From positions 2,610,501-2,674,500 of the forward strand of contig NZ_AP024154.1 of assembly GCF_015533855.1 (NCBI RefSeq): DNA of 64,000 bases, given 5' to 3'. Under the pieces are notes generated by a model. That model saw nothing but the letters and a program-made list of their open reading frames with translations. It had not been told where the DNA came from and did no database searches. Source of the DNA: Echinicola sp. 20G. Lineage in GTDB: Bacteria; Bacteroidota; Bacteroidia; Cytophagales; Cyclobacteriaceae. The position numbers and the translations under genes were made by a program. Below, one piece after another: positions 23,450 to 41,810 of this stretch. Numbering within the stretch: position 1 is the first letter of the stretch; every line of letters starts with the position of its first letter.

Positions 23450-23455
23450 CAGCCT

Positions 23456-25516
23456 ATGAGCAAAAGAGATTTCAAAAGATATACAGTTACTTCCGCTTTG
23501 CCTTACGCAAACGGACCTTTACATATTGGGCATTTAGCAGGATGTTATATTCCTTCTGATATTTATGTACGCTATTTGCGTTCATTAGGCAAGGATGTGG
23601 CCTACATCTGTGGCTCTGATGAGCATGGAGTGGCGATCACCATCAAGGCCAAAAAAGAAGGGGTGACTCCACAAGAAATAGTGGATCGATACCATGGTAT
23701 CATGAAGTCCAGTTTTGAGGAGTTTGGAATCAGTTTTGACCATTATTCCAGAACCAGTGCACCCGTTCACCATGAGACAGCTTCTGCATTTTTTTCTGAC
23801 TTGTATGAAAAGGGTGAGTTTTTGGAGCAATCCACCGAGCAGTACTATGATGAGGAGGCGGGCCAGTTTCTGGCAGATAGGTATATAGAAGGAACTTGTC
23901 CTAAGTGTGGCTATGAGCAAGCTTATGGAGATCAGTGCGAGAAGTGTGGGACATCATTGAGTCCTACTGATCTAATTAACCCTAAATCAAAGTTGAGTGG
24001 AAACTCACCTGTTTTGAAAGAAACCAAACATTGGTTTTTGGATTTGGCCAGGTATACAGATTTCCTGAAGAAGTGGATTTTGGTTGACCATAAGGGGGAT
24101 TGGAAAAACAACGTGTTGGGCCAATGCCGCTCGTGGCTAGAGGCAGGAGACGGCCTTCAGGCACGTTCTATGACCAGGGACATGGACTGGGGAGTTCCTG
24201 TTCCGGTAGAAGGGGCTGAAGGGAAGGTTTTATATGTGTGGTTCGATGCACCTATTGGCTACATTTCCTCTACGAAGGAATGGGCAGCGGAAAAAGGCTT
24301 GGATTGGGAGCCCTATTGGAAAGACCAAGATACCAAATTGGTACATTTTATAGGAAAGGATAATATAGTTTTTCATTGCATCATTTTCCCGGCAATATTA
24401 AAGACACATGGAGAATATGTGCTTCCAGACAATGTACCGGCCAATGAATTTTTGAATTTGGAAGGCGACAAAATTTCAACTTCAAGGAATTGGGCAGTAT
24501 GGTTGCATGAGTATTTGAAAGACTTCCCTGGCAAGCAAGATGTGTTAAGATATGTCCTAACAGCAAATGCACCTGAAACCAAGGACAATGACTTTACTTG
24601 GAAAGACTTCCAAGGAAGAAACAACTCTGAATTGGTGGCCATTTTCGGGAATTTTGTAAATAGGGCTGTAGTACTTACCCACAAATACTTTCAAGGATCC
24701 ATTCCGGAAAGAGGCGATCTGTCACCTTATGACCAAGAAGTGATTGATGAGTTGAAAGCATACCCCAACAAAATTGCCGCTTCGATAGAAAAATACAGGT
24801 TCAGAGAAGCCTTGAGTTTGGTAATGGACTTTGCCAGACTTGGTAACAAATATTTAGCGGATACCGAGCCTTGGAAGACCATCAAAGAAGATAAGGAGAG
24901 AACAGCAACCATCTTAAATATAGCGCTCAACATTGCTGCTAATTTAGGCGTTGTTTGTGAGCCATTTTTACCGCTTACCGCGGAGAAATTATCAAGCATG
25001 CTAAATACAAGAGGCTTGAAATGGACTGATGCAGGAGCTGATAATTTATTGAAAGGTGGAGAAGAGATTGGAAAGGCAGAGTTGTTATTTGAAAAAGTAG
25101 AGGATGAAGTCGTTGATGCCCAAGTTCAAAAATTAATGGAAGCAAAGAAGCAGAATGAAGCAGCAAATGCTACCGTTCCTGCAGTGAAGGAAAATATTTC
25201 TTTTGATGATTTTACCAAGCTAGATCTTCGAGTTGTGACGGTTTTGGAAGCTGAAAAAATGAAGAAGTCAAAAAAGTTGATAAAGCTGACAGTTGACACT
25301 GGCTTGGAAAAAAGGACGGTACTGAGCGGAATAGCTGAGCATTTTAATCCTGAAGAATTAATAGGTAAACAAGTAACCATGTTGATTAATTTGGCTCCCA
25401 GGAAAATGATGGGCGTTGAGTCTGAAGGTATGATATTGATGGCTGAAGATAAAGATGGAGCATTGAGATTAATGATGCCACATGAAGCTACAGCACCGGG
25501 ATCACCAATAAGTTAG
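23456..25516 (+). CDS. metG: Methionyl-tRNA synthetase with C-terminal tRNA-binding domain
   Basis: 686 aa from ATG at 23456 (a TTG three codons upstream lies inside the promoter). It charges tRNA-Met. HIGH is at residues 23-26 in PLHIGHLAG, a zinc knuckle CPKC...CEKC lies near 145-165, and the KMSKS loop appears as KISTS near 338. The anticodon-binding helical region follows. The last about 110 residues, starting [20 protein letters not shown], form the Trbp111/EMAP-like OB fold that helps dimerisation and tRNA binding. Length and order fit the long bacterial MetRS class. Confidence 0.96.
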
Positions 25517-25999: not shown

Positions 26000-26758
26000 T
26001 TATGGGTTTGCTTCAAAAAACCTTAGCTTTCTATACCTTACAGGAAAGGATACACTGATAGGGTATACTTCATCCATCAATAGACTTTTGATTTTCCAAT
26101 CAGAAAAACCGCCACCAACTTCGTAAGGAATATATTGGACTCCATCTAAGCAGTTTATAAAGTTTAAGTTGTCTACCACACCTACAGAAGTCGCCTTCAA
26201 TAGAGATTCTTTTCTGGTCCAAAGTTTAAAAAACTCATGTCTTGGTGAGTAAGCATTTTCAATAAAGTGAGCTTCTGGTTTTGTGAAACAATTGTTGATT
26301 AGGGATAAAAAATCAAACTTACTATCAACGAACTCAATATCTACTCCCAGCTCATCACTACAAAATCCAAAAATTACCCAGTCTTTGGAGTGAGAAATGT
26401 TAAAATTAAAATTCCTATGATTTTTAATGGCAGGTTTTTTATTCATACCTTCTATGAACTCTACTTCTTCTGGTTCGCAATTAAGATATTTGGACAATAA
26501 TGTCTTGAGGAAGCCCTTTCCAATAGCATACCTTAACCGATCACTTTCTTTCTGATACCGGTTCATCGTATTAAACTCTTGTGGGGTGAGAAGCTGTAAA
26601 ATTTTATCAATTTTATCTTTTAATTTCTGCACAGGAACTCTCCACAAATCAACATTTTCGCCGATTTTGAAGTCTGACTTCACGGTCCAATTAGGAAGCA
26701 AAACGGTGCTACAATGAATTTTGCTTATAAACAGTTGACTATCCATCATTTGACACAT
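26000..26758 (-). CDS. 4'-phosphopantetheinyl transferase, Sfp type
   Basis: 252 aa, the size of Sfp/Gsp-type enzymes. GVDIEFVD (about 126-133) supplies the Mg2+ acidic pair, and FFKLWTRKESLLKATSVGV (about 175-193) is the W-x3-ES-x3-K block. ISHSKDWVIFGF precedes it. It should move the phosphopantetheine arm of CoA onto carrier-domain serines. It is the last gene of the leftward NRPS/PKS group, 540 bp after the C-A-T-TE gene, and presumably activates the four carrier domains there. An 11-bp inverted repeat lies just upstream. Confidence 0.9.
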   Translation of the reverse strand: MCQMMDSQLFISKIHCSTVLLPNWTVKSDFKIGENVDLWRVPVQKLKDKIDKILQLLTPQEFNTMNRYQKESDRLRYAIGKGFLKTLLSKYLNCEPEEVEFIEGMNKKPAIKNHRNFNFNISHSKDWVIFGFCSDELGVDIEFVDSKFDFLSLINNCFTKPEAHFIENAYSPRHEFFKLWTRKESLLKATSVGVVDNLNFINCLDGVQYIPYEVGGGFSDWKIKSLLMDEVYPISVSFPVRYRKLRFFEANP

Positions 26759-26783
26759 TTTGTCGATAATTGACTGATTTTAT

Positions 26784-26815
26784 TTTGAATTCGAGAAAAA
26801 CTTATCGAATTCAAA
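26784..26815. promoter_or_regulatory. Inverted repeat upstream of PPTase gene
   Basis: TTTGAATTCGA - 10 nt - TCGAATTCAAA, a perfect 11-bp inverted repeat starting 26 bp before the PPTase ATG. There is no T tract on the minus strand, so an operator is more likely than a terminator. Confidence 0.4.
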
Positions 26816-27256
26816 TTATTTGGGACTTTTCTCAATTCTTTTTATTTAAACGATTTTTACTACCAGGAGTATTATCTGTTTCTTTTTTGATATCAAATAT
26901 TTTCAAAAATTAATTCCTATTTATTGATGAATTTTGAGGTGAGTTGCTTGGTACATTTTAAAATGAACAGAAGAGCCAATATTGTAATCTTGATGTTTTA
27001 TGAGCCGACAATCAAAGAGGACAAACTGTGCGTGACTAAGTTTTTCTTACCTTCCAATTTATCATATAATAGTAAAGCTAATCAAATTTTGAATCAATAA
27101 AAATGTATTTCATACTAAAAAAAATGAATTAAGTATTTTAGTGTTCGAAAGGTTCAAAAATAGAAACAATCATGGCTAAAAAGTCCTAATTAATAATCTA
27201 AAATTGTGTTATTTATATTAAAAATGATAATAAATATTGATTGTCGATAAAGAATT
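26816..27256. other. AT-rich gap with one 57-codon frame
   Basis: This gap lies between the NRPS operon end and the PPTase gene. A plus-strand frame (ATG 26927 to TAA 27100, 57 codons, beginning MNFEVSCLVHFKMNRR) has no recognised family and is opposite to all neighbours. Nothing else was seen. Confidence 0.3.
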
Positions 27257-27289
27257 GATTTTCGGATAAACTCAGTTTATCCGAAAATC
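27257..27289 (-). terminator. Perfect hairpin at the end of the NRPS operon
   Basis: GATTTTCGGATAAACT - C - AGTTTATCCGAAAATC, a 16-bp perfect stem 9 bp after the last NRPS stop. On the minus strand it is followed only by AATTCTTTATC, so it is a terminator without a full T tract or an mRNA-stabilising hairpin. Confidence 0.55.
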
Positions 27290-27297
27290 ACCTTCCA

Positions 27298-30200
27298 TTA
27301 TCTTTCGTTTAAAAGATTTTGAAGTTTGTTTGCAAATGGTGCTCCAAATGGCGCATCAAACATACTATTGTGATCTCCTTCAATGTCTATCACATTTACT
27401 TTCTGCACAAATGACGACCATCCATAATATTTTTCATCTGTTACAGGAGCTATTTTTATGGCAGCTTTGAAAAGTGTAAGTTCCGCACTGATAGGAGATA
27501 AGGAATAATTTAGCAATGACTCCGCATTAATTTGTTTTATTTCTTTAATAATTTGGAACCGGTCTTTATTGATTTCTTCCTTTTTAGCCATTCCTACTTT
27601 AGAACGCCATCCGTCCATTTTTCTTTTGATTACTCTAGCTTTAGTGGTTCTAAAGGTTTTTGGTGCCTTAAACAATAACTCTAGTTCCACTTTTCTTTGA
27701 TTTAACTGATCAGCTAGTCTTTGCTTAAAGGTTTTTGAATTAATATCTCTAAAATCATCTGGTTCAATACTGGTATCAAAGATTATTAGTTTTCCTAGTT
27801 CTTTTCCCATCGAAAGTAGTTGCTTGGCCATTTCGAATGCAACATAACCTCCGAAAGAGTATCCACCAATATGGTAGGGGCCCTGAGGGTTATGAGCAAT
27901 GATTTCATTGACATAGTGCTTGGCCATATTTTCTATTCCTCGGTTAGGTTCGTCAATACCGTTTAGGCCTTTAGCTTGCAGCCCGAAAAGAGGTTGTTCT
28001 TTGTCAACATATTCAATTAGTTTAAAGTAATTGGTGATATTGGCAGCTATCCCGTGAATGAGGTAGATAGGAGGCTTGTTGCCTGATTCTTTTATAGGAA
28101 TTAGTGAAGTCCAATCTTGAGTTTCCTCAATCAGTTTATTTTTATTGTCCAATAGCTGAGCAAATTGTCTTACAGTGGGATTTTTAAATAGCGAAGTAAG
28201 TGGAAGGTTTTGTTTAGTTTCTTTATCTATTTTGCCCATTACTTCAACAGCCATTATGGAATGTCCTCCGAGTTCGAAGAAATCATCATCAAGACTTATA
28301 TGGTTTACATTAAGACTCCTTTTCCATATTTCACTTACGAGTTTTTCGGTATCTGACTGGGGTGAGAGGCCTATGTTGATTGGGCTAGCTTCTAGAAGTT
28401 TAGGAGTAGGTAAAGCGTCTAGGTCAACTTTCCCGTTTGGTGTAAGTGGAAAAGCTGTAATTATAATCCACTCAGAGGGAATCATATATTCAGGTAGAAA
28501 CTTCCTCAAGGTTTGCTTTTGCTCTTGAAGACTTCTTTTTTGATTGACCAATGTAGTACTTTGGTCTCCAGTCAGCAAAGGGTCATTTTCCTCAATGATG
28601 TATGCTACAAGCATTTTGTCACCATTTGTAGAATTGAAATCAGTGACGAGCGAGGCCTCTATTCCACTTAGGTTGTTTATTTGCTGCTCTATCTCTCCAA
28701 TTTCGATTCTTTGGCCTCTAAGCTTTATTTGTTTGTCAATTCTTCCCAAACAAACTAGTTCTCCATTGGGAAGGTATTTGCCCAAATCTCCTGTTTTATA
28801 GAGAGTGCCTTCATCATTTACAAGATTTGTGAGAAAACGCTCTTTGTTTAATTCCTGCCTATCCCAATAGCCACTAGCTACTCCATTACCTGCTATGTAG
28901 ATTTCCCCTGTCTCCCCTAACGGTAATAGTTGTTGATGTTCATCAAGAATGTAGATTCTTGTATTATTGACTGGTCTCCCGATAGACTTACACTCTTCTA
29001 CATGCTTAATTTGTTTAATAGTGGAAAAAATAGTCGTTTCTGTTGGGCCATAGGCATTCCAAATTTCGTCAGTAATTTTAAGTAGTTTTGTAATTAAACT
29101 TTCTTGAAAAGGTTCTCCTCCAGAAACAATCTTTAGAGGTAGATAATAGTCCCATCCCACCTGAACAAGCATTTGATAAGTAGCTGGGGTGGAAAACATG
29201 CGTGAAATACGTTGTTCTTTTAATGCTTTTAGCAAGAGTCTACCATCTTTAGAAGTATTACTGTCTGCCATGACCAAAGTGGCTCCATGGGCAAGAGGAC
29301 TGTAAAATTCCGCCCCTGCTACGTCAAATGATATCGTAGTAATGGCAAGTAACCTGTCTGAGTGATGCATTCCAGGATTATTTTTAACTCCTAATACAAA
29401 ATTCACTAAGTTACCATGAGTCACTTCTACTCCCTTAGGTTGACCTGTGGAACCTGATGTATATAATATATATACCGGATCATGTTGCTCTATTTTAACA
29501 GATGGTCTAACAGGACTGTAGTGGGCAGAAGTGTCTTTGAATATGGAGAAGTTGATGACTTCTATAGGTTTTTTAGAAATGAATTCACGTTTCTTAGCTG
29601 TAATAAGAGCTGTTGCACAAGAATCCTCCAACATGTAATCAATTCTGTCCTTTGGAAGGTCAGGGTCTATTGGAATATATACCCCCCCTGCTTTAATTAC
29701 CCCTAAAATGCCAATTATTAAATCGGCTGATCTTGGAAGAGAAACACCAACATGTTCTCCTTTTCTAATGCCACTTTTTATTAAAAAATTTGCAAACTTA
29801 TTAGATTCCTCTTCAAGGTTTAAGTAACTAAGCTGTTGTTGTTTAAATTCTAATGCTAGCTTTTGCGGTCTGATTTTGACTTGGTTTTCAATCAGCTTTA
29901 AGACAGTTAAATCTGAATTGTAAGCTGAAGTCGTATCCAGATTGAACTTATTGTATTCCTCCAATATAATTGATTGGCTTTGGCTAAAAATTTTATAAAT
30001 GGGTATGTTAGGATTTTTGCTTACGACTCCAAGTAGATATTCAAAATCTACCATGAGCTTTTCTACTGTCTCTGATTTGAGGAGGGAAGTGTTGTAATGC
30101 CATTCAAATTGAATAGAATCGTTAAAACTTGTTATGTTTAAGGCCAATTCGAAGTTATCAAACTTTCTTGGGTTGTTGACTATTGAATATTCGAGACCAT

Positions 30201-31347
30201 GAAAGTTGATGTTGTCTATTCCACTATCAATATTAAGGACTATTGGTACCAGTGGCGAATTGGAGGGGTCACGTTTGATTTTTAATTTGGGCAGAAGTTT
30301 GCTATAAGTAAAAAGTGTATGGTCATAGCTTTCCTGGATTTGAACATTTCTTTCATTGATGTATTCAGTTACTGTTTTCTTATCGTCAATTTTCGATTTC
30401 ATTGGTAGCAAATTGACACAGTGACCAATCAAATTAAAGTAGCCTTTTGTTGACTGACCTGCTGAAGGTAAACCAATGGTGATACTATCTGCCAAGGAAA
30501 ATTTAGCAATAAGGAGCTCAAAGGTGGCAAGTAATGTATTAACCAAGCTAGTGTTTAATGATTTGGCTAATGACTTTATTTGTTCAGCTTTTTCATGATT
30601 TATTTTACCATCAATTCTTTTACTACCATATGTTTTGATCGAAGGTCGTTTATAATCTGATGGTAAACAGAATGAGGAATCTTTCTCAAATTGATTTAGC
30701 CAAAATTGTTCAGTCTCCAAGAAGCTTTCGCTTTGTTCAAATTTGTGAATAGCTTCAGAGTATTTCTCAAATTGGTCAGGTGATGGTAATGAATGTGGAT
30801 TGTTTTCAAGTTTCGAAGTATAAATTTCACTGATTTCCTCGAGTAATATGCCAAGCGACCAACCGTCAGCGATAATATGGTGTATGGTTAAAGTAAAGCG
30901 ATAATGCTCAGGGGACAATTGATGTAAAAAGGTACGCACCAGAGGACCTTTTTCTAGTTCGAATGCAGTTTCAGCATCTTTCTCATGGAAATCTTTTAAA
31001 CGTATCTTTTGATCATCTTTTGACAGCATCGATAGATCAAATTGTGCTGTCAAATGAATCTGTGATTGATGAATATATATATGATTACCATCATTACTAA
31101 AAGTAGACCTAAGTAGTTCATGTCTTTCTAAAACTTCCTTAAATGAATCATTGAGGATTTCAGGTTTTAAAACGCCTTTAAAATCCAAAGAGAGTGATTG
31201 ATTGAAGGAAAGGTTTGCCTCTTGTCCTCCCAGTTTGCAAGCCAACCAAATTTCCTTTTGAGGAGGGATAGTGGAAATAGATTTAACTATATGGCCTTGT
31301 TTGAAGGGGTTGTAATCAACTGGTATGTACTTAAAAGTAGAATTCAT
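27298..31347 (-). CDS. NRPS module C-A-T-TE
   Basis: 1349 aa. C domain (about 20-470): an opening STIPPQKEIWLACKLG and the catalytic HHIIADG near 156. A domain (about 480-985): YTSGSTGQPKGVEVTH near 634, NAYGPTETTIF near 765, YKTGDLGKYLPNGELV and NGKVDLDALP. Carrier domain: DDFFELGGHSIMAVEVM, Ser near 1031. Thioesterase (about 1080-1349): GGYSFGGYVAFEMA near 1165 (nucleophile Ser) and GDHNSMF near 1328 (His). It should join amino acid 2 to the chain made by the upstream protein and release the product. A-code read by hand: D-V-A-F-V-G-A-I-F. Its start is 4 bp after the upstream stop, so translation is coupled. Probably cytoplasmic. Confidence 0.92.
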   Translation of the reverse strand: MNSTFKYIPVDYNPFKQGHIVKSISTIPPQKEIWLACKLGGQEANLSFNQSLSLDFKGVLKPEILNDSFKEVLERHELLRSTFSNDGNHIYIHQSQIHLTAQFDLSMLSKDDQKIRLKDFHEKDAETAFELEKGPLVRTFLHQLSPEHYRFTLTIHHIIADGWSLGILLEEISEIYTSKLENNPHSLPSPDQFEKYSEAIHKFEQSESFLETEQFWLNQFEKDSSFCLPSDYKRPSIKTYGSKRIDGKINHEKAEQIKSLAKSLNTSLVNTLLATFELLIAKFSLADSITIGLPSAGQSTKGYFNLIGHCVNLLPMKSKIDDKKTVTEYINERNVQIQESYDHTLFTYSKLLPKLKIKRDPSNSPLVPIVLNIDSGIDNINFHGLEYSIVNNPRKFDNFELALNITSFNDSIQFEWHYNTSLLKSETVEKLMVDFEYLLGVVSKNPNIPIYKIFSQSQSIILEEYNKFNLDTTSAYNSDLTVLKLIENQVKIRPQKLALEFKQQQLSYLNLEEESNKFANFLIKSGIRKGEHVGVSLPRSADLIIGILGVIKAGGVYIPIDPDLPKDRIDYMLEDSCATALITAKKREFISKKPIEVINFSIFKDTSAHYSPVRPSVKIEQHDPVYILYTSGSTGQPKGVEVTHGNLVNFVLGVKNNPGMHHSDRLLAITTISFDVAGAEFYSPLAHGATLVMADSNTSKDGRLLLKALKEQRISRMFSTPATYQMLVQVGWDYYLPLKIVSGGEPFQESLITKLLKITDEIWNAYGPTETTIFSTIKQIKHVEECKSIGRPVNNTRIYILDEHQQLLPLGETGEIYIAGNGVASGYWDRQELNKERFLTNLVNDEGTLYKTGDLGKYLPNGELVCLGRIDKQIKLRGQRIEIGEIEQQINNLSGIEASLVTDFNSTNGDKMLVAYIIEENDPLLTGDQSTTLVNQKRSLQEQKQTLRKFLPEYMIPSEWIIITAFPLTPNGKVDLDALPTPKLLEASPINIGLSPQSDTEKLVSEIWKRSLNVNHISLDDDFFELGGHSIMAVEVMGKIDKETKQNLPLTSLFKNPTVRQFAQLLDNKNKLIEETQDWTSLIPIKESGNKPPIYLIHGIAANITNYFKLIEYVDKEQPLFGLQAKGLNGIDEPNRGIENMAKHYVNEIIAHNPQGPYHIGGYSFGGYVAFEMAKQLLSMGKELGKLIIFDTSIEPDDFRDINSKTFKQRLADQLNQRKVELELLFKAPKTFRTTKARVIKRKMDGWRSKVGMAKKEEINKDRFQIIKEIKQINAESLLNYSLSPISAELTLFKAAIKIAPVTDEKYYGWSSFVQKVNVIDIEGDHNSMFDAPFGAPFANKLQNLLNER

Positions 31348-31351
31348 GATA

Positions 31352-34300
31352 TTAAGAATTAAAAGTTAGTGACTCCAATAAAAGGTACTTACCTGCTCTA
31401 TTTGGATCATTAATGAACCATGCAGGTTTTCCATCCAATGTTTTACCAAGTAATGCTCCTGGTACTGGAGGTTTATCATAATTTGTAAAGAAAGAATTAC
31501 TTTTTAGAACTTCAATTTTTTCACCTTCATTGGGTAAATGTTCACGTGAAATTGTGTTAGTTTGCGTACTTTTTGGCTCGTTTTTTCTTTCTCCTGTAGT
31601 GTTAATATTAACATTTAACAATAGATTGATTTGTTGGGATAGTTGTGTCATTTGCTTACTAATAAGCAACAAAGCCTCTTTATCGACATTGCTTAGATTA
31701 CTTTGGATCTGGTTAATTCTGTTTGACACTTCATCAGATTCAATTTTGAGATTGTTATCATTTACTGAATTCTTCAAATCAGAGGTTTCCTGAGAGAATT
31801 TAAGCAAATGATTCACAAGTTTGTCTAAGCTATTAAAAGAGGTTGTTAAGAGTTTAAATGATAATGGTGTTTTAAACTCTTTCTGGAAAGTAAAAGATAA
31901 TTGGGTTAGTAGAAGGGAATCTAAGCCCATCTCCATAAATGTTTGATGGTCAGGTGTGTTTTCGTAATTGATGCCTGATATATCTAATAAAATTTTTATC
32001 AGCTTATCTCTAATCCTTTTCCTTGGGGTTAGTTCAGCTTCAGCCTGCAAGGGAGAGGGAAATATTACAGTTTCTTCAGTTTTTGTTTCTAATATTCTAT
32101 CTGTTTGGATAGGATCAATCCAGCATCTTTGTTTGTCAAATGCATAGGTTGGAGTTTCTATAAAGTTATTGTTTTCTCCATGATAAAATTTGTCCCATTT
32201 AGGTTTGATACCAAGGGAAATTAGTCTCCCAAATTGAGTCAATATATAGTGATACTCATTTTTTTCATCTAAACGGTTTAAACTGTTAACTGTTTGAGAT
32301 TTGGAAGCGGATTTATGTTGCTTTATTAGGGTAGATAAACCATTTCCTGGGCCTATTTCTAAGAAAATGGTTGTTGCATTGAGTGATGTTATATGTTCAA
32401 TAGTTGGAGAGAACAAGACAGACTTTCTGAGGTGATCTGTCCAATATTTTGTAGAAGTTGCTTCTTCTTCAGTTAAATGTTTTCCTGTAACTGTTGAAAT
32501 AATGGGGATTTTAGGTTGCTTCATCTTCACTTTACTAACTTCCTCATGAAAAGCATCCAAAATGGGATCCATCATGCTTGAATGAAAGGCATGACTTGTG
32601 AAGAGTTTTTTATGTAGAATTTCATGTTTCTCCAAAATCAAGGAGAATTTTTCAATTTGGTAAGAAGGTCCAGCAACCACACAAAGCTCAGGAGAGTTGA
32701 TAGCGGCTATTGATAGGTCTTCTGAGATGAGGGTGTTGATCTTATTCACCGACGCTCTTACTGAAAGCATATCCCCATGTGGTAGATCGGCAACCAACTT
32801 TCCCCTAATAGCAACCAACCTTATGGCATCTTCAAGACAGAATATTCCAGAAAGATGAGCGGCTACAAATTCACCAATACTGTGACCGCATAAATAGGAA
32901 GGAACTACTCCCCATGACTGCCATTGCTTAGCAAGCGCATATTCAATTGCAAAAATTGCTGGTTGTGTATATTTGGTGTTTTTTAATATTGATTCTGCAA
33001 TACTGTCACTTTCATTAGGGAAAATGATTTCTCGTAATGAAAAGTCAATGTGTGTATTAAAAAGACTTATGCAATGATCCAAAGCTTCTCTAAATATTGG
33101 AGCAATTTGGTATAAATCTTTTCCCATATTTAAATATTGTGCTCCTTGACCGGGAAATAAAAATATTGGATTGGGTACCTCGGTTGTTACTCGATTGGTT
33201 GGAGCGGGAGAAGATTCAGTCTTTTCAAGTTCTTTAATAAGGTTCTCTCGATCACTGAAAGTTAAATAACTTTTGTAGGAAAATTCACTTTTTTTACGGT
33301 TGATCGAGTAGGAGAGATCGTCAAGGTTAATGTGGGGAGCACTTTCTATAAATTGCCTTAGTTTCTTCCAATAGAGGTGCAAACTGTTTTCGGATTTTGC
33401 TGCAATGTTTATTACCTTATAAGGTTTAGTTGAGGATTTAACTGTGTGAGCTTTTTCTGGGTATTCTTCTACGACAATGTGGACATTTGTTCCTCCGATA
33501 CCAAAAGAGCTTACTCCAGCTTTTCTTGGGAAATCTTCTATCCAATCTGTAGTGCTATTGTTGATAAAAAAAGGCGTATTGACAAAGTCAATATTACTGT
33601 TAAGTTCATTAAAGCCGACGGTAGCAGGAATTTTTTTGTTTCTTAAGGCTAGGACTGTTTTGATCAATCCCGCTACACCAGCAGCAGCAGTAAGGTGTCC
33701 AATATTACTTTTTACCGATCCCAAGGTACATTTATGTTGTCGGTTATTTGTGAAGCCAAAAGCCATTTTAAGTCCTTCGGCTTCAATAGGGTCACCAACT
33801 GGCGTTCCAGTTCCATGCATTTCAACATAACTTATGGATTCCGGTGAAGTTTGAGCATCTTTCAAGGCGGCGTGAATGGCTCCTGCCTGTCCTTCTGCAC
33901 TTGGTGCTGAAAAACTGCCTTTATTACCTCCATCGTTATTGACCCCTATGCCTTTAATGACTGCTAAAATAGTATTACCATCTTCAATGGCCTTGTCTAA
34001 ATTTTTTAATAGAACTGCTCCAGCCCCGTCATTAAATAAAGTGCCAGAAGAAGTTTTGTCAAAAGGCTTACAATGGCCATCTTTGCTGAAAATTGCTCCC
34101 TCCTGATATAAATGGCCGGTTTTTACTGGAGAAGAAACAGAACTACCTCCAGCTATTGCCATTTCACATTGTCCAGACCTGATACTCTGTACAGCTTGAG
34201 CCACAGCAAGTAGAGAAGTAGAGCATGCTGAATAAACACTTATGGCTGGTCCACTTAAGTTAAGGTGATAGGCTGTTCGGGAAGAAACATAATCTTTTTC

Positions 34301-36604
34301 ATTAAGTGTCATTACAGGGATAGAACCAAACCTTTCGACCAGTTTCCTGTTAGGAAGTATATTGTTTTGGTAATAGGTGTTGTTATTTGTACCAGCAAAA
34401 ACCCCTATTTTGCTCTTTTGCTCATTGGAAGAGAAGTGCTCATTTTCTAATAATTCCCAAGCAATTTCAAGAAAAATCCTTTGTTGGGGATCCATTAAAG
34501 CAGCTTGGGACGGGGGAATACCAAAAAACAAAGGATCAAACTTTTCGACATCCTGGATGATTCCTCTGGCGGGGACATAGTTAGGATCATTTTTTAAATA
34601 ATCAGGAATTGTACTGTCCAATTCATCTTTTGAAAACCTTGAAATTGAAGATTTACCTTCTAGAAGATTTTTCCAAAAACCAGCTACATCATCTGCACCA
34701 GGGAATCTACCCGAAAGTCCTACAATTGCAACATCACTTTGCGTTGAAGCTTGCAGTTTTTTAGAAGTGTTTTTTGGAAATGTATTTTTTTGCTCTGGCT
34801 CCAAGTGTTTAGTAAGTGCCTTAATTGTAGGACTCTGATAAATGTTAGGAACGGTTATTACTAGTCCAAGCTCTTCTTTTATTTCGATAGATAGTTTTTG
34901 AGCAAGCAGTGAATTGCCTCCAAATTCAAAGAAATTATCTTCTGTTCCAATAATGTCAAAATTGAGTATGTTTTTGAAAATCCTAGATAAACTTTTCTCT
35001 ATTTCACTTTTGGGGTTTACAATAATGGAATCAAATTCTTCTCTTCGACTTATTGGCAAAGGAAGGTTATTACGATCTATTTTTCCGCTGGTAGTTTTTG
35101 TGAAATCACTTAGCTTCACAAAGATGGAAGGGATCATGTACTCGGGCAGCGTTGTGGCTAGGTGTTGAATTATACTTTTTTGAGAAATATTGTCAGATTG
35201 ATCTGTAGTATAGTAGGCGACTAAAAATTTATAACCGTCTTCATTTTCCCTAGCCACTACAACTACTTGATTTATTAAAGCATATTCGTTAAGAACAGCT
35301 TCAATTTCTCCAAGTTCGATCCTATACCCTCTTATTTTTACCTGATGATCTCTTCTTCCTAAGAAAGTAATTGTTCTATCAGTTTCAATTTTTGCAATGT
35401 CCCCCGTTTTATAAACTTTAATGTCTCCTTTTTCGGGGTGAGAGATTGTTTTGAATTTTTGTGAGGTTAGTTCATGTTGATTTAAATAACCACTTGCTAG
35501 GCAAGGACCCGCAATAACCAGTTCCCCTTCTTTTTCTAATCCTTCATTTAGCACACATTCCTTATCATCTAAGATAAAGGCTTGAACATTGTCAATTGGA
35601 AACCCTATACTTGGTAAGTTTGGCCATTTGTTCACATCATTGCCTGATAGTTTTAGATTAGTTACGATCACAGCCGTTTCAGTAGGGCCATACTGATTGT
35701 AAAGGTCTGCTGACTCGATTTGGGAATAAAACTTTCGAATATTGGGTGTGATTTTTAGTTGTTCCCCGGCAGTTATGATTTCCTTGATAGATTGAGGGTA
35801 TAGATTGTTTAGTACAGCGGCGTTACACAAAGCCTGAAAGCTAACAAAAGGCTGGAATAAGCGATTGATTTTGTTACGTTCGATAAACTTCAAAAGACCC
35901 AAAGGATTTTTCACTAATTCTTCGGTTGTAAGAAATAGGGTTCCGCCTGTGGTCAGCGTGCTAAAAATCTCTTGAAAGGAAACATCAAAAGTTAATTTTG
36001 TGAACTGTAGAGTGTTCGCTTTACTGTTGGCCATAGAGTTTTTCTGTTGCCAAATTAATAGGTTGACTAATGCTCGATGAGGTACACAGACTCCTTTTGG
36101 TTTTCCCGTAGAACCTGAAGTAAAAATTGTATATGCGATATGCTCAGGAGATATTTGACGAGTAGTTCCTAAGATAGGATAACTAAGAAGTCTTTTTTTA
36201 ATGTCGTTTATTCCTAAAACCCTGACTCCACTCCCTTCTAGACTATTATCAGTTTCATTTGCAATTAAAATAGAAGAAGCTGTGCTTTCAATAATAATTT
36301 TTTTTCTTTCATTCGGAAATTCAGGAGCAATAGGAACATAAGAAGCCCCGCACTTCATGATACCTAAAATTCCAATGATCATTTCTAAGGATCTGTTTAA
36401 GATTATTGGAACTTGGTCGTGTTGATTTACGCCCTCATCTATTAGGAGATTGGCTAGTTGGTTACTTTTGTCCTCTAATTGCTGATAGGTGAGGGTTTGA
36501 CCCTCAAGATTTAAGGCAATGTTATTAGGATATTTGAGAAAGGCCTCAAAAAATAGATCCACGATGGACTTATCTGAGTAGTGGTTGATTTCTTCTGGAT
36601 TCAT
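31352..36604 (-). CDS. Hybrid NRPS-PKS A-T-KS-AT-ACP
   Basis: 1750 aa. A domain (about 10-510): FTSGSTGKPKGVCVPHRA near 163, FTKLTFDVSFQEIF, NQYGPTETAVIV near 305. Carrier: NFFEFGGNSLLAQKL, Ser near 564. Ketosynthase (about 628-1055): VAIVGLSGRFPG, YSACSTSLLA (Cys about 794), EMHGTGTPVGDP (His about 932), KSNIGHLTAAAG. Acyltransferase (about 1145-1440): FLFPGQGAQ, GHSIGEFVA (Ser about 1240) and HAFH near 1338, the malonyl-type motif. ACP: FMEMGLDSLLLTQL, Ser near 1562. The C-terminal PPVPGALLGKTLDG...NDPNRAGKYL tail is typical of PKS modules handing over to a C domain. There is no KR, DH or ER, so the keto group should stay. A-code D-V-Q-F-I-A-Q-V-I is close to proline codes. Confidence 0.93.
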   Translation of the reverse strand: MNPEEINHYSDKSIVDLFFEAFLKYPNNIALNLEGQTLTYQQLEDKSNQLANLLIDEGVNQHDQVPIILNRSLEMIIGILGIMKCGASYVPIAPEFPNERKKIIIESTASSILIANETDNSLEGSGVRVLGINDIKKRLLSYPILGTTRQISPEHIAYTIFTSGSTGKPKGVCVPHRALVNLLIWQQKNSMANSKANTLQFTKLTFDVSFQEIFSTLTTGGTLFLTTEELVKNPLGLLKFIERNKINRLFQPFVSFQALCNAAVLNNLYPQSIKEIITAGEQLKITPNIRKFYSQIESADLYNQYGPTETAVIVTNLKLSGNDVNKWPNLPSIGFPIDNVQAFILDDKECVLNEGLEKEGELVIAGPCLASGYLNQHELTSQKFKTISHPEKGDIKVYKTGDIAKIETDRTITFLGRRDHQVKIRGYRIELGEIEAVLNEYALINQVVVVARENEDGYKFLVAYYTTDQSDNISQKSIIQHLATTLPEYMIPSIFVKLSDFTKTTSGKIDRNNLPLPISRREEFDSIIVNPKSEIEKSLSRIFKNILNFDIIGTEDNFFEFGGNSLLAQKLSIEIKEELGLVITVPNIYQSPTIKALTKHLEPEQKNTFPKNTSKKLQASTQSDVAIVGLSGRFPGADDVAGFWKNLLEGKSSISRFSKDELDSTIPDYLKNDPNYVPARGIIQDVEKFDPLFFGIPPSQAALMDPQQRIFLEIAWELLENEHFSSNEQKSKIGVFAGTNNNTYYQNNILPNRKLVERFGSIPVMTLNEKDYVSSRTAYHLNLSGPAISVYSACSTSLLAVAQAVQSIRSGQCEMAIAGGSSVSSPVKTGHLYQEGAIFSKDGHCKPFDKTSSGTLFNDGAGAVLLKNLDKAIEDGNTILAVIKGIGVNNDGGNKGSFSAPSAEGQAGAIHAALKDAQTSPESISYVEMHGTGTPVGDPIEAEGLKMAFGFTNNRQHKCTLGSVKSNIGHLTAAAGVAGLIKTVLALRNKKIPATVGFNELNSNIDFVNTPFFINNSTTDWIEDFPRKAGVSSFGIGGTNVHIVVEEYPEKAHTVKSSTKPYKVINIAAKSENSLHLYWKKLRQFIESAPHINLDDLSYSINRKKSEFSYKSYLTFSDRENLIKELEKTESSPAPTNRVTTEVPNPIFLFPGQGAQYLNMGKDLYQIAPIFREALDHCISLFNTHIDFSLREIIFPNESDSIAESILKNTKYTQPAIFAIEYALAKQWQSWGVVPSYLCGHSIGEFVAAHLSGIFCLEDAIRLVAIRGKLVADLPHGDMLSVRASVNKINTLISEDLSIAAINSPELCVVAGPSYQIEKFSLILEKHEILHKKLFTSHAFHSSMMDPILDAFHEEVSKVKMKQPKIPIISTVTGKHLTEEEATSTKYWTDHLRKSVLFSPTIEHITSLNATTIFLEIGPGNGLSTLIKQHKSASKSQTVNSLNRLDEKNEYHYILTQFGRLISLGIKPKWDKFYHGENNNFIETPTYAFDKQRCWIDPIQTDRILETKTEETVIFPSPLQAEAELTPRKRIRDKLIKILLDISGINYENTPDHQTFMEMGLDSLLLTQLSFTFQKEFKTPLSFKLLTTSFNSLDKLVNHLLKFSQETSDLKNSVNDNNLKIESDEVSNRINQIQSNLSNVDKEALLLISKQMTQLSQQINLLLNVNINTTGERKNEPKSTQTNTISREHLPNEGEKIEVLKSNSFFTNYDKPPVPGALLGKTLDGKPAWFINDPNRAGKYLLLESLTFNS

Positions 36605-36627
36605 AGTGGAGAAATTTAGAAAAATTG

Positions 36628-36646
36628 ATTCTTCAAACTGAAGAAT
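36628..36646. promoter_or_regulatory. Inverted repeat in leader of hybrid NRPS-PKS gene
   Basis: ATTCTTCA - AAC - TGAAGAAT, an 8-bp perfect stem 23 bp before the ATG of the hybrid gene. On the minus strand it is followed by CAATTTTTCT. Possible weak attenuator or operator. Confidence 0.35.
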
Positions 36647-36784
36647 TCGAATGGATATCTTTAAGTAAGAATAATTATTTTTTAAATATATAAAAATGTT
36701 TTTTGTAAATAAAAAAACGAAATTAAAATATTGTATTTAAATGGAAAATTAATACAAAAAATAACTTGATTGCTAGGTAAGTAG

Positions 36785-39472
36785 TTATAATTCAGTTGTT
36801 TTGTATTTGTTTTTTGATGAAATTACGTTTTGTAAGTTATTCGCTAAATTTTTTACATTGGGAGCATCAAACATTGTATAATGATCTCCTTCAATGTCCA
36901 GTGGAATTATATTATTGACAAAGGGTTTCCAGCCATAGGTGTTTTTATCTCTTATGTAGCTGATTTTGATTTTAGCCCTAAATAGATAAATGTCAATATT
37001 CAGCGGTTTCATTTTGTAAGCCTTTATGGAGTTTAAATGAATAGTCTTAATATTTTCGAATATTAATTTTCTTATATGAGATGGTTTGTATTTCTTGGTA
37101 TAAAGAGTATTAATTTTTCTTTCAAGGGCACGCCGTTTTGTGGTTATAAAAGTTTGCGGAGCCCGAAAAAGTAGCTGAATATCTACTAATCGTTTATTTA
37201 CTGAATGAGTAAATGACTTTATGTTTTTTTGCCAAGTGGTAGATTGTTTTTCATTCAAAGGCAAAACATCTGTATCGAAGAGAATAAGGTACGAGACTTT
37301 TTTGCCCAGACTTAAAAGTTGTCTAGCCATTTCGTAGGCTACATAACCTCCGAAAGAATATCCTCCTAATAGGTAAGGGCCTTTTGGATTGTGTTCCAAT
37401 ATTTCTTTAATGTAATGAGCTGCTATATTTTCAATTCCGAATATGGGTTTTTCTGACCCATCTAGACCCTTTGCTTGAAGGCCAAACAATGGTTGTTCGG
37501 GGCTTACATGATCGACCAAATTAAAGTAATTAGTGATATTGGCGTTGATTCCGTGAATAAGGTAGAGTGGAGGGAGCGAACCAGATGGTTTGATTGGTGT
37601 TAAGGATTTCCAAAACTGGGATTCTTGTTTGCTTTTTTCATGGGAATTTAGAAGCTCACAGAATTTCTCTAATGTTGGGTTTCTGAAAATAGTGGTTAAG
37701 GGGTAATAATGCTCTGTCATTTGGTCAATTTTTGCCATCAGTTCAACAGCTAAAATTGAGTTTCCTCCAAGCTTAAAAAAATCATCGTTGGGTTTGATAT
37801 GCTTGATTCCAAGAACTTGAGACCAAATTTCCCGAACAGCTTTTTCTTTGTCAGATAATAAGAAGCTCCTATCCGAGTTATCAGCTTCCTTTTGAAATGG
37901 GGCCGGTAAGGCCTTAAAGTCAATTTTTCCATTTAGAGTTAAAGGAATTTTTGTGATTTTGATCCAAAGTTGGGGGATCATGTAATCAGGAAGGAGCTTT
38001 TCGAGTTTTGACTTCCAAATAGAAAGTTGATGATCCGATATTTCTTTGTCTAAATCTGTAATAATGTAAGCTACTAGAACTTTGATCCCAATAGAATTCG
38101 AAGGTGCAGTTATAACAGCAGATTTAATATTGTTCAAACGAATGATTTGATTTTCTATTTCTTCTAATTCAATTCTATGTCCTCTAATTTTTACCTGTGA
38201 GTCCATTCTTCCCTCAAATAAAATTTCTCCATCTTCAGTCAATGAACCAAGGTCACCTGTCTTATAAATAATTTCATTACCATTAGAGAAAGGGCTTTGT
38301 ATGAATTTTTCTTTATTCAGTTCATTTTTTTTCCAATAGCCTTTGGAGACACCTGTCCCTCCAATTACGATTTCACCTTTTTGTCCTGGTGATAGTAAGT
38401 TCAAGTTATTATCAAGAATGTAGATGGACGTGTTATGTATGGGCGAACCGATAGTTAATTTTTGGAGGTTTTTTGTGATTCTTTTTATTGAAGAGAAAAT
38501 CGTAGTCTCCGTTGGGCCATATTCATTCCATAATTCGTCAGAAAGATCCAGAAGTCGATTGGCCAAATCATTGGATAAAACCTCCCCTCCAGTTATCAGT
38601 TTAATTGGTAGTTTTTTCCTCCAGCCTATGTTAATGAGCATTCTGTATGTTCCGGGCGTGGAATGAAGCATGGTGATTTTCTTTTCTTCAAGAAAAGAAA
38701 GAAGTAGTCTTCCATCCTTTATAGTTTCTTGGTTTGCAATGATGAGCTCGCTTCCATTACATAATGGAAGTAAGATTTCCATGATAGAAACGTCGAATGA
38801 AAACGAAGTAATAGCCAAGAGTCTATCTTTAGAAGTAATTCCAGGGCGTTGTTGAGATGAAAGAAGTAAATTTAAAAGATTTCCATGTGTCATGATGACA
38901 CCTTTTGGCTTGCCAGTTGATCCAGAGGTATAGATCATGTAAGCCGCATCGAGTTGATTAATTTTTGTGCTTGGAAAGTCAATATTTGGGGGGCATTGTT
39001 TTAATTGATGGATTAGTATGTGTTCAACATTAATATTTTGAGTTGAAAGGAGTGTTTTGGATGATATGACTACTGAAATTTCTGCATCATTAAGTATTGT
39101 TTTTACTCTTTCAATAGGTGTTTGTAAATCAATAGGTAGACAAACCCCTCCAATTTTGAGGATGGCTAAGAAGCAAATTGGATACTCATGAGACCTTTCA
39201 AGGGAAACTGCTACTTTTTGCCCTTTGGTTACACCTCTATAGCGCAGATTTTTTGCATATAAATTAGATTGGTTTTCAAGTTCTAAATAAGTAAAGTGCT
39301 CCAGATTAGAAATTAATGCGATTTTGTATGGGTGGCTTTGGACTGTTTTTGCGAAAAGCTCAAGAACATTTGAGTAAAGAATGTCCATGGAAAAGTAATT
39401 TTTGGCATAATATGCTTCAAAAATATCGCCATAATCTTTGGCGGATGCTTCTCGCGAACCTAGATAGCTCAT
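36785..39472 (-). CDS. Free-standing NRPS-like A-T-TE protein
   Basis: 895 aa. A domain (about 25-520): YTSGSTGKPKGVIMTHGN near 184, FSFDVSIMEILLPL (Asp of the amino-acid anchor present), NEYGPTETTIFSS near 319, YKTGDLGSLTEDGEILFEGRMD and LNGKIDFKALP. Carrier: DDFFKLGGNSILAVELM, Ser near 573. Thioesterase (about 625-895): YLIHGINANITNYF, GGYSFGGYVAYEMA near 709 and GDHYTMFDAP near 864. There is no condensation domain. It is a close paralogue of the A-T-TE part of the 1349-aa protein. It could load an amino acid in trans, or act alone like A-T-TE quinone/furanone synthetases; the conserved Asp argues for an amino acid. A-code: D-V-M-H-I-G-E-I-F. First gene of the leftward operon. Confidence 0.92.
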   Translation of the reverse strand: MSYLGSREASAKDYGDIFEAYYAKNYFSMDILYSNVLELFAKTVQSHPYKIALISNLEHFTYLELENQSNLYAKNLRYRGVTKGQKVAVSLERSHEYPICFLAILKIGGVCLPIDLQTPIERVKTILNDAEISVVISSKTLLSTQNINVEHILIHQLKQCPPNIDFPSTKINQLDAAYMIYTSGSTGKPKGVIMTHGNLLNLLLSSQQRPGITSKDRLLAITSFSFDVSIMEILLPLCNGSELIIANQETIKDGRLLLSFLEEKKITMLHSTPGTYRMLINIGWRKKLPIKLITGGEVLSNDLANRLLDLSDELWNEYGPTETTIFSSIKRITKNLQKLTIGSPIHNTSIYILDNNLNLLSPGQKGEIVIGGTGVSKGYWKKNELNKEKFIQSPFSNGNEIIYKTGDLGSLTEDGEILFEGRMDSQVKIRGHRIELEEIENQIIRLNNIKSAVITAPSNSIGIKVLVAYIITDLDKEISDHQLSIWKSKLEKLLPDYMIPQLWIKITKIPLTLNGKIDFKALPAPFQKEADNSDRSFLLSDKEKAVREIWSQVLGIKHIKPNDDFFKLGGNSILAVELMAKIDQMTEHYYPLTTIFRNPTLEKFCELLNSHEKSKQESQFWKSLTPIKPSGSLPPLYLIHGINANITNYFNLVDHVSPEQPLFGLQAKGLDGSEKPIFGIENIAAHYIKEILEHNPKGPYLLGGYSFGGYVAYEMARQLLSLGKKVSYLILFDTDVLPLNEKQSTTWQKNIKSFTHSVNKRLVDIQLLFRAPQTFITTKRRALERKINTLYTKKYKPSHIRKLIFENIKTIHLNSIKAYKMKPLNIDIYLFRAKIKISYIRDKNTYGWKPFVNNIIPLDIEGDHYTMFDAPNVKNLANNLQNVISSKNKYKTTEL

Positions 39473-39619: not shown

Positions 39620-39656
39620 AAGAAAAAAGTCCGATGACTTTATAAGTCATCGGACT
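39620..39656 (-). terminator. Rho-independent terminator of oligopeptidase B gene
   Basis: Minus strand AGTCCGATGACTT - 3-nt loop - AAGTCATCGGACT followed by TTTTTTCTTT, 105 bp after the stop at 39762. It separates the peptidase from the NRPS operon. The NRPS promoter must lie in 39473-39619, where no clear TAnnTTTG was found. Confidence 0.8.
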
Positions 39657-39761: not shown

Positions 39762-41810
39762 TTATTTGACGAGATTTAAGATATAAGCATATTCCATGGC
39801 CAGTTCTTTCAAGGAATAGAATCTTCCAGAAGCTCCTCCATGACCTGCATCCATATTGGTGTAAAGCAACAATAGGTTATCATCGGTTTTTTCAGCCCTT
39901 AGCTTGGCCACCCATTTGGTAGGTTCCCAGTATTGTACTTGACTGTCGTGCAATCCAGAGGTCACTAATAGGTTAGGGTAGGACTTTCTTTCTATGTTGT
40001 CATATGGCGAATAGGACAGCATGTAATCATAGTAAGCTTTTTCTTTAGGGTTGCCCCATTCATCAAACTCACCCGTGGTCAAGGGAATGCTTTCATCAAG
40101 CATGGTGGTGACCACATCTACAAAAGGAACGGCAGCAATTACACCTTTGTACAAGTCTGGTCTTAAGTTGATGATTACGCCCATTAATAATCCTCCTGCG
40201 CTTCCACCCATCGCAAAAAGTTTCTTTGTAGAAGTATATTGATTAGAGATCAAATGTTCACTACATGTTATAAAGTCCGTAAAAGTGTTCATCTTTTTGA
40301 GCATTTTCCCATTCTCATACCAGTTTCTCCCCATTTCCTGTCCTCCCCTGATATGGGCAATCGCATAAACAAAACCTCTATCTAATAAGCTTAGCCTATT
40401 TGAACTAAACAAGGCGTCAGTGCTGAATCCGTAGGAACCATAAGCATATTGAAGCAGAGGATTACTTCCGTCCTTTTTGAAAAGAGATTTTTTATAAACC
40501 AGTGATATAGGGATGCGGGTTTCATCATCTGCTATTGCCCAAATTCGTTCGGCTTGATATTCATTTGGATTATATCCACCTAGTACTTCCTGTTGTTTGA
40601 GCAAGGTTTGCTCCTTACTGATCATGTCATAGTCAAAAGTGGAGGAAGGAGTGGTGAGAGAATTATATCCGAACCTTAGAAGGTTAGACTCGAAGGAGGG
40701 ATTGAAGCTTATCCAGGCAGAATAAGTGGGCTCTTCAAAGTTTATATAATGACTGTTATTGCCGTTCCATGGATTGATTTGTATTCTGGTTAGTCCGTTG
40801 AAGCGTTCTTCAAGAACAAGAAAGTCTTTGAAAACTTCAAAGCTTTCTAACAAGACATCCTTCCTGTGAGGAATGACATCTATCCAATTCTCTTTACCAG
40901 TAGTTTTTACTGGGGTTTTGACCAATTTATAATTTAAAGCCTTATTGTGGTTTGTCCAGATAAGGAAGTGGTCCTCAAAATGTTCAACGCTATATTCTAG
41001 GTCTCTTTCTCTGGACTGGACAAGGTGTGGTGTGTTGTTGGGGGAATCGGCTTCAATAAATCTTACTTCTGATGAAACTGTACTTTCACTATTGATAAAT
41101 AGATATTTTTTTGATTTTGACTTTGAAATATGACAAGTAAACGTTTCATCTTTTTCCTCATAGATCAATTCATCTTCAATTGACTGTTGGCCTAAAGAGT
41201 GCTTATAGATTTGGAATGACCTTAGTGTATTAGGGTCTTGTTTAGAATAGAACAGCGCTTTATTGTCATTGGCCCAAGCAATATTGCCTGTGATTTCAGG
41301 GATTTCGTCTTTTAGGATTTCACCGGTTGTCAAATCTTTTAACCTAATAGTATAAACTCTCCTTCCAACATTATCCTGAGCAAATGCCAACAGGTTTTGA
41401 TTGGTTGAAATAGCGAGGGAGCTGACATTAAAATACTCATGTCCTTTTGCCAGAATATTTACGTCCAGTAAGACTTCCTCAGGGTTTTCTAAAGAGTCTT
41501 TTTTACGGCAAAAAATAGGATACTCTCCGCCTTGAATATACTTAGAGAAATAAAAGTATCCATCTTTAAAATACGGGACACTCTGATCATCTTCCTTAAT
41601 TCTGCCTTTCATTTCTTCGTAAAGCTCATTTTGGAGACCTTCAGTGTGTTGTAAAGAGGCTTTTAGGAAATCATTCTCATCGTTTAAATATTGGATGACC
41701 TCAGGATTATTTCGATCATTCATCCAATAGTATGGATCATTTCTTTCATGTCCGTGAAAAATAAGTTTTTTATTGTTAATGCTTGCCTTAGGAGAAGGTT
41801 TACTAGTCAT
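39762..41810 (-). CDS. Oligopeptidase B, prolyl oligopeptidase family S9
   Basis: 682 aa, normal length for PtrB. The N-terminal beta-propeller (about 70-410) is followed by an alpha/beta-hydrolase domain. There GGSAGGLLMG (Ser about 538), SGLHDSQVQYWEP (Asp about 622) and DAGHGG (His about 660) give the triad. YGSYGFSTDALFSSNRLSLLDRGFVYAIAHIRGG is the classic S9A/B segment. It should cleave short peptides after Arg/Lys. There is no signal peptide, so it is probably cytoplasmic. It stands alone with its own terminator; a link to the NRPS product is not supported. Confidence 0.93.
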   Translation of the reverse strand: MTSKPSPKASINNKKLIFHGHERNDPYYWMNDRNNPEVIQYLNDENDFLKASLQHTEGLQNELYEEMKGRIKEDDQSVPYFKDGYFYFSKYIQGGEYPIFCRKKDSLENPEEVLLDVNILAKGHEYFNVSSLAISTNQNLLAFAQDNVGRRVYTIRLKDLTTGEILKDEIPEITGNIAWANDNKALFYSKQDPNTLRSFQIYKHSLGQQSIEDELIYEEKDETFTCHISKSKSKKYLFINSESTVSSEVRFIEADSPNNTPHLVQSRERDLEYSVEHFEDHFLIWTNHNKALNYKLVKTPVKTTGKENWIDVIPHRKDVLLESFEVFKDFLVLEERFNGLTRIQINPWNGNNSHYINFEEPTYSAWISFNPSFESNLLRFGYNSLTTPSSTFDYDMISKEQTLLKQQEVLGGYNPNEYQAERIWAIADDETRIPISLVYKKSLFKKDGSNPLLQYAYGSYGFSTDALFSSNRLSLLDRGFVYAIAHIRGGQEMGRNWYENGKMLKKMNTFTDFITCSEHLISNQYTSTKKLFAMGGSAGGLLMGVIINLRPDLYKGVIAAVPFVDVVTTMLDESIPLTTGEFDEWGNPKEKAYYDYMLSYSPYDNIERKSYPNLLVTSGLHDSQVQYWEPTKWVAKLRAEKTDDNLLLLYTNMDAGHGGASGRFYSLKELAMEYAYILNLVK

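Follow-up and report, generated by a model that had tools for sequence, protein, structure and literature searches.

The window analysed here is a 64,000-nucleotide stretch of the marine bacterium Echinicola sp. 20G (NZ_AP024154.1, positions 2,610,501 to 2,674,500), whose genome is one contig of 5.79 Mb. It encodes a small nonribosomal peptide synthetase-polyketide synthase (NRPS-PKS) line made of an A-T-KS-AT-ACP hybrid protein, a C-A-T-TE termination module and a free A-T-TE protein, with a phosphopantetheinyl transferase (PPTase) nearby (A, adenylation; T, thiolation; KS, ketosynthase; AT, acyltransferase; ACP, acyl carrier protein; C, condensation; TE, thioesterase). Is this line a pathway of its own kind or a variant of one that other Bacteroidota share, and what could it produce? 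We consider it likely that the locus holds a working three-gene NRPS-PKS unit between the PPTase gene and the gene for oligopeptidase B (OpdB), in which a class III aminotransferase (AMT) was lost and the second amino acid pocket was changed. The line of 20G derives from a kind of line that is already known, and what makes it notable is the natural loss of AMT beside an AMT-bearing sister. The main features, taken from open reading frame (ORF) calls and annotation of the 64-kb window, are as follows.

26000 to 26758, minus strand: Sfp-type 4'-phosphopantetheinyl transferase (PPTase), 252 aa (Pfam PF01648 and PF22624)
27298 to 31347, minus strand: C-A-T-TE termination module, 1349 aa (Pfam, pocket code, motifs)
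31352 to 36604, minus strand: A-T-KS-AT-ACP hybrid, 1750 aa (Pfam, alignment, pocket code, motifs)
31370 to 31471, minus strand: C-terminal tail of the hybrid, PPVPGALLGKTLDGKPAWFI...GKYL, located after AMT in AMT-bearing relatives (alignment)
31472 to 31747, minus strand: linker of the hybrid at the place of the relatives' AMT of about 415 aa (alignment)
36785 to 39472, minus strand: A-T-TE protein, 895 aa, taken as a C-less paralogue of C-A-T-TE (Pfam, code, motifs, tree)
39762 to 41810, minus strand: oligopeptidase B (OpdB), prolyl oligopeptidase family, boundary of the locus (Pfam; below the NCBIfam cut-off)

The original prediction, made from the letters alone, had placed three assembly-line genes and a PPTase on one strand; the coordinates match exactly, and every domain is supported by Pfam. 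AMP-binding, PP-binding, KS, Acyl_transf_1 and a second PP-binding domain were found in the hybrid, Condensation, AMP-binding, PP-binding and Thioesterase in the C-A-T-TE protein, AMP-binding, PP-binding and Thioesterase in the A-T-TE protein, and ACPS and AASDHPPT_N in the PPTase. The best E-value across the four proteins is 6.7e-89, so chance is no issue for these assignments. The hybrid has no Pfam match to a ketoreductase (KR), dehydratase (DH), enoylreductase (ER) or AMT. Its KS carries SACSTSL, EMHGTGTPVGD and KSNIGH, and its AT carries GHSIGE and HAFH, the latter presumably of malonyl type. The C domain has HHIIADG, both TE domains have the Ser motif GYSFG and the His motif GDH, and the carrier serines are present in the three large proteins. 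The catalytic motifs noted earlier were thus recovered, the pattern A10 of the hybrid being the sole mismatch in the three large proteins; the A10 lysine (K508) and S1563 of the ACP occupy invariant columns of the hybrid alignment. A frameshift or a dead active site in a core domain would have spoken against a working line, and we found reading frames and motifs intact. By these marks, the three-gene line is real and intact, and the module logic proposed earlier, amino acid 1 plus one malonate plus amino acid 2 with TE release and a separate A-T-TE protein, is supported.

The missing AMT sets the hybrid apart from most of its close relatives. The hybrid is without a PF00202 match, and it has a gap at AMT in the alignment with its relatives. 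Only 153 residues separate the ACP motif from the tail, versus 651 in the sister genome G007. The hand-over tail PPVPGAxLG...AWF...GKYL is kept and is 76% identical to that of G007, and because this tail follows AMT in relatives, an in-frame loss of AMT is the simplest reading. Eleven genomes of the genus were searched, and the family was found in seven including 20G; six of these seven have AMT, with 20G as the exception. The line lies at the same locus in G003 to G007 and G010, all with AMT. There was no match to the hybrid family at E <= 1e-100 in G001, G008 and G009, and a remote match alone in G002. The AMT of G007 is 80-81% identical to those of four other Echinicola and 67% identical to those of G011 and G046. 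Could a free-standing class III aminotransferase still aminate the β-carbon in trans on the ACP? The genome does encode five PF00202 proteins. However, a close AMT was not found among them: all five are 25-31% identical to the AMT of G007 (the best 31%), which would fit ordinary housekeeping enzymes, and none is encoded at the locus. We regard amination in trans as very unlikely. As predicted from its domains, the 20G line is family-like up to the ketone and is not a β-aminating line, and because the nitrogen-adding step was lost, its product should differ from those of most close relatives.

Was AMT lost in 20G, or gained by the others? A FastTree tree was built for 124 hybrids, which combine a similarity listing (the best 120 of 5518 matches) with the fetched genomes. 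It contains 13 AMT-less members, as judged by motif, and at least four changes are required to explain the AMT label on it. P0005 and its kin, a group without AMT, adjoin the Echinicola clade in the trees, and this position weighs against a simple loss, since parsimony seems to favour neither a loss in 20G nor a regain by the other Echinicola. Grouping 20G with the P0005 group was disfavoured (approximately unbiased test, p-AU 0.0145), a group that was chosen post hoc with the tree already known.

The core pair of hybrid and C-A-T-TE belongs, by sequence, to a widespread Bacteroidota family. Among the best 120 of 5518 matches, the closest relatives of the hybrid are the AMT-bearing Echinicola proteins P0001 to P0004 and P0006 (52-56% identity), and the nearest relatives are mostly proteins of about 2200 aa with an extra class III aminotransferase, PF00202. 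Sixteen relatives aligned to the hybrid with 44-56% identity over 91-99% of the query. A genome scan with alignment queries gave 80 loci (the best of 563), which lean to the same A-domain type because the query patterns came from the A domain. We examined the 35 loci titled Bacteroidota, calling domains by BLAST with pieces of 20G and G007. AMT shares one open frame with the hybrid in 32 of the 35, as separate genes in 25 and in fused form in 7, the latter being Saprospiraceae proteins of about 3760-4100 aa that join hybrid and C-A-T-TE. The remaining three are a locus in pieces (L146) and two loci cut by contig ends (L121 and L145). L146 is from Maribacter litopenaei, whose family copy is broken into several reading frames (L146:10168-20364). 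C-A-T-TE adjoins the hybrid in 22 of the 25 separate-gene loci, and its start is seen in one more; a PPTase adjoins the line in 22 of the 35, some loci having ended before one could show. The usual form of the family is thus A-T-KS-AT-ACP-AMT, then C-A-T-TE, often with a PPTase. In an evenly drawn sample of the phylum, 30 of 395 genomes (20G included) matched at E <= 1e-150, some of them with other PKS. Six loci were read from this sample, four with AMT and two without (G226 and G277).

A published layout comes close to this form. Pedobacter heparinus C6XWU5 is given as A-CP-KS-AT-CP-PLP1 with the cluster prediction Nrp-Mal-Gly-Pk in Table 2 of PMC3870968, so that by published layout, not by alignment, the hybrid of 20G has the same A-T-KS-AT-ACP order. 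With its Bacteroidota kin, 20G shares the tail, the adjacent C-A-T-TE, the often adjacent PPTase and a proline-type first pocket. Unlike C6XWU5 and kin, 20G has no aminotransferase, and its second pocket reads DVAFVGAIFK, not DILQLG[MV]IWK. The relatives carry a class III AMT between the ACP and the next C domain as in the MycA-type PKS-AMT of mycosubtilin described in the relevant part of PMC3870968, whereas 20G has none there. The lines of G226 and G277 (L203 and L204) resemble 20G more closely in layout, with an AMT-less A-T-KS-AT-ACP hybrid, the same tail, a C-A-T-TE protein and a PPTase. They differ from 20G in the glycine-like first pocket DILQLGMIWK, in hybrids that are 41-42% identical to that of 20G, and in having no A-T-TE within the 20 kb examined.

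These comparisons narrow the original claim that no described Bacteroidota pathway has this set. The exact AMT-less four-gene set was not seen in the loci examined, and this part of the claim stands. The broader part has to be qualified, because the core pair is found in a large Bacteroidota family, the parental layout is already in PMC3870968 (as far as its Table 2 goes), the AMT-less pair with a PPTase occurs in G226 and G277, and an A-T-TE gene lies near AMT-bearing lines of Mucilaginibacter. It is therefore highly improbable that this is a stand-alone pathway of a type new to Bacteroidota. Although no product of any family member was found in the open-licence literature, which could hint at such a pathway together with the unmatched gene set, homologous lines occur widely and, within the genus, in synteny. 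An unassigned family is also not rare, because, according to the section of PMC9248904 consulted, of 306 Bacteroidetes cluster families only 12 fell together with MIBiG entries whose function is known. Fulvivirgamide is a reference cluster, called a siderophore cluster in the portion of PMC12565237 seen.

The comparison with G007 suggests how the two lines came to differ. Flanking proteins of the two genomes are 93-98% identical (OpdB 94%, PPTase 96%), whereas identity falls to 76% for A-T-TE, 55% for the hybrid and 56% for C-A-T-TE. Synonymous divergence (dS) from G007 is 0.42 for OpdB, 1.07 for PPTase and 0.72 for A-T-TE, and it is saturated for the hybrid and C-A-T-TE. In 500-base steps, DNA identity is 89-99% over 40001-48000 and 56-69% over 27501-37000. 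The A-T-TE gene is a mosaic, with 92-94% identity at 37501-38500 and 58-62% at the gene ends. From this pattern we infer that recombination replaced the line in 20G or in the G007 species, swapping in a divergent allele. The C-A-T-TE tree pairs 20G with G007 as sisters (96/96), the branch of 20G being the longer one. In the hybrid tree, 20G falls outside the AMT-bearing Echinicola, with 90/91 for the excluding fork; pairing 20G with G007 was not rejected (p-AU 0.107). An in-frame TAG had suggested that the A-T-TE gene of G007 is a pseudogene, but we take the TAG as its own stop codon, since the ORF has 886 aa.

Such divergence could also mark a decaying cluster, in which AMT was lost and the proteins diverged fast because the line no longer works. 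Besides the missing AMT, the long branches of 20G (0.69, compared with 0.39 in the hybrid tree and 0.31 in the C-A-T-TE tree for G007) and a pN/pS of 0.30-0.41 for the three genes (two of which have saturated synonymous sites) versus 0.09 for OpdB are what one would expect from decay. We nonetheless judge it unlikely. Twelve kilobases of reading frame are open with intact motifs, and the saturated synonymous divergence points to an older allele rather than merely faster protein change. The hybrid keeps 96.0% of 379 near-invariant columns (the 8th lowest of 124) and C-A-T-TE keeps 97.4% of 228 (the 11th lowest of 63), close to the AMT-bearing members P0004 and P0006 with 95.8% and 96.3%. A point on the other side is that selection is judged from kept columns alone, because synonymous sites are saturated against G007.

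For the working line that we favour, the substrates were predicted from pocket residues, placed by the GrsA numbering, with the final K of each code assumed. The first A domain, in the hybrid, has the code DVQFIAQVIK. The pattern DVQ[FY]xAQV[VI]K occurs in 113 of 127 hybrids, with five Echinicola counted twice. The best PDB sequence matches of the hybrid pocket segment are tyrocidine synthase 2 (88.8 bits) and gramicidin S synthase 2 (85.5 bits), followed by a match of 50.1 bits; both of these chains hold a proline module. The part of PMC9113097 consulted gives Pro as the substrate of DVQFVAQVVK and DVQYIAHVVK, and 59 of 71 Pro domains fall under codes with Val236 and Gln239 in that of PMC12283262. 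The first pocket is therefore of proline type, and proline loading is predicted from it. Several points weigh against this assignment. Two residues of the code are not those of DVQFVAQVVK, and the 127 hybrids were selected for their similarity to 20G, a choice that favours its own code. In the six loci of the phylum sample, the first codes are DVQFMAQVVK (twice), DVQFIAQVCK, DAEFMAQVCK and, for the AMT-less pair, the glycine-like DILQLGMIWK (twice). Other AMT-less groups have other first codes as well, so loss of AMT may accompany a change of substrate.

The second A domain, in C-A-T-TE, has the code DVAFVGAIFK. Among its relatives, 35 of 62 have DILQLG[MV]IWK (six genomes counted twice), and DILQLGMIWK is reported for Gly domains in the part of PMC12283262 at hand. 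The second codes read in Echinicola follow DV[MAI]F..GAI.K, and six other Echinicola also differ from DILQLG[MV]IWK. DVAFVGAIFK matched no assigned code that we found, which counts against any closer assignment; the second amino acid is probably not glycine. The usual chemistry of the family is probably proline plus malonate, β-aminated by the in-line AMT, plus glycine.

In the pathway that we propose, the PPTase would arm the carriers and A1 would load proline. The KS would then condense the prolyl group with malonyl from the AT to 3-oxo-3-(pyrrolidin-2-yl)propionyl-ACP, and the ketone would stay, since there is no KR or AMT. The steps to the prolyl β-ketoacyl-ACP follow established PKS logic; the malonate unit and the hand-over are predicted from domain type and tail. 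By way of the tail, the chain would pass to C-A-T-TE, whose C domain would join it to the second, probably non-glycine amino acid, and the TE would release a prolyl-malonyl β-ketoamide of that amino acid. How the chain ends is a conjecture, with two outcomes about equally likely: hydrolysis to the linear β-ketoamide acid, or a ring closure in which the acidic CH2 attacks the thioester and a 3-prolyl tetramic acid forms. The TE shares 72% identity with its counterpart in the AMT-bearing G007, so the sequence is silent on the release mode. The bolder idea that AMT loss and the changed second pocket switched an ancestral Pro-malonate(β-NH2)-Gly dipeptide line into a tetramic-acid line is doubtful. 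If it were true, the un-aminated 1,3-dicarbonyl would lend the CH2 the acidity needed to close the ring on release, and 3-prolyl tetramates would come from a TE that releases a β-amino peptide in the sister species.

The chain might also leave early. The nitrogen of the proline ring could attack the ACP thioester to give a bicyclic pyrrolizidine-1,3-dione, with the second module adding little or nothing. By chemical reasoning, this five-membered ring is possible when the ketone is un-aminated, and in the AMT-less proteins P0011, P0042 and P0100, possibly one-step amino acid plus malonate enzymes, the final carrier is followed by a TE and the protein itself contains no further amino acid module. 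The first code differs in P0011 and P0042, however, and the kept hand-over tail together with the kept C-A-T-TE columns argues that the second module is used, so that we hold an early exit to be quite unlikely. For the full two-module line, 20G and G007 are a natural experiment with the same locus and near-identical flanks, with and without AMT. Comparing their metabolites would reveal the family product and the contribution of AMT, for a family that is widespread in Bacteroidota and has strongly conserved pocket codes among the members near 20G.

The free A-T-TE protein is the weakest part of the proposal. Its code DVMHIGEIFK is the same as that of G007, and we take it as a C-less paralogue because it groups beside the Echinicola C-A-T-TE in a quick tree. 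Its probable role is to present another aminoacyl-T, paired with a TE of its own, which the one C domain might use as an alternative acceptor. L208 has a split termination module, in which the hybrid ends in AMT-C and an A-T-TE comes next; this layout suggests by analogy that such A-T-TE proteins can receive their chain from a C domain carried by a different protein. Free A-T-TE proteins in NRPS clusters are also known from PstA (friulimicin) and LpmA (laspartomycin) in the part of PMC9113097 used here, and from PacP A-T-TE0 in that of PMC8748450. Those proteins serve C-T modules or a free T domain, whereas the sole C domain of 20G has its own A, and the 20G protein carries the TE Ser and His motifs. 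We rejected a trans A-T-Te loader of the PstA/LpmA type, as there is no A-less C-T module and the only Condensation match genome-wide lies inside C-A-T-TE. Asp235 marks α-amino acid A domains and is lost in α-keto-acid A-T-TE synthetases; it is present in DVMHIGEIFK, and a synthetase of the latter kind was likewise dismissed. Fungal non-reducing NRPS-like enzymes share the A-T-TE order. They use aromatic α-keto acids according to PMC9047271, unlike the Asp235-bearing protein of 20G. An A-T-TE gene also lies upstream of the AMT-bearing line in three Mucilaginibacter loci (L101, L110 and L149). A second free A-T-TE of 906 aa (in a 910-aa frame) is encoded elsewhere in 20G (L087:8078-10798, minus strand; G000:C1, about 1646078-1648798), beside a putative histidine kinase and a putative response regulator; its pocket DILQLGGIYK is glycine-like, and G004 to G007 have matches. 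Carrier matches genome-wide number six: the line accounts for four, an 82-aa frame of the window for one and this second A-T-TE for the last.

Two terminator-like hairpins frame the three large genes.

27256 to 27290, minus strand: terminator-like hairpin, 16 pairs, directly 3' of the C-A-T-TE stop (consensus scan)
39628 to 39656, minus strand: terminator-like hairpin of 13 pairs with a T run after it, between the OpdB and A-T-TE genes (consensus scan)

The scan of the region gave 16 terminator-like sites versus 10.8 +/- 3.2 in shuffles, a mild excess, and the hairpin at 27256-27290 has the longest stem among them. The gaps are 4 bp between C-A-T-TE and the hybrid and 180 bp between the hybrid and A-T-TE. 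We read the three genes as one predicted unit bounded by the hairpins. A promoter scan stayed at background level (60 found versus 58.7 expected). The PPTase gene lies beyond the hairpin, separated from the three large genes. In G001 and G002, which lack the line, the PPTase gene is directly beside OpdB, and for both reasons the PPTase is not part of the insert. The original prediction had counted it as a cluster member; as judged from its sequence, the PPTase probably serves the line. Both ACPS and AASDHPPT_N are present in this protein, and the NCBIfam equivalogs stay below their cut-offs. The AT-rich block described earlier is seen against its left side (G+C in 2-kb windows 33-38% versus 39-42%), and the contrast with the right side (36-40%) is weak. 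By their positions, as we read them, the longest direct repeats of the block (D1 to D4) lie in A and T domains that are homologous among the three large proteins.

OpdB was present in all 11 genomes searched; in G010 it is split into two frames (L078:5150-7203). Two plus-strand genes at 22151-25516 of the window have counterparts here in G001 to G006 and G010, and these were not found in the G007 stretch examined. In Mucilaginibacter L149 (21-24653), the AMT-bearing line and its A-T-TE lie among polysaccharide genes for a flippase-like protein, glycosyltransferases and an acyltransferase, and of 26 loci compared, 9 have homologues of the GT2 glycosyltransferase pair of L149 close to the line. 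The product of such lines may be glycosylated or part of a surface polymer. G003 has genes for a DUF5687 protein and an ABC ATPase between the hybrid and OpdB (L072:2467-4742), where 20G has A-T-TE, and this pair is a possible exporter candidate. G004, G006 and G010 have plus-strand frames of similar size there, known by size alone.

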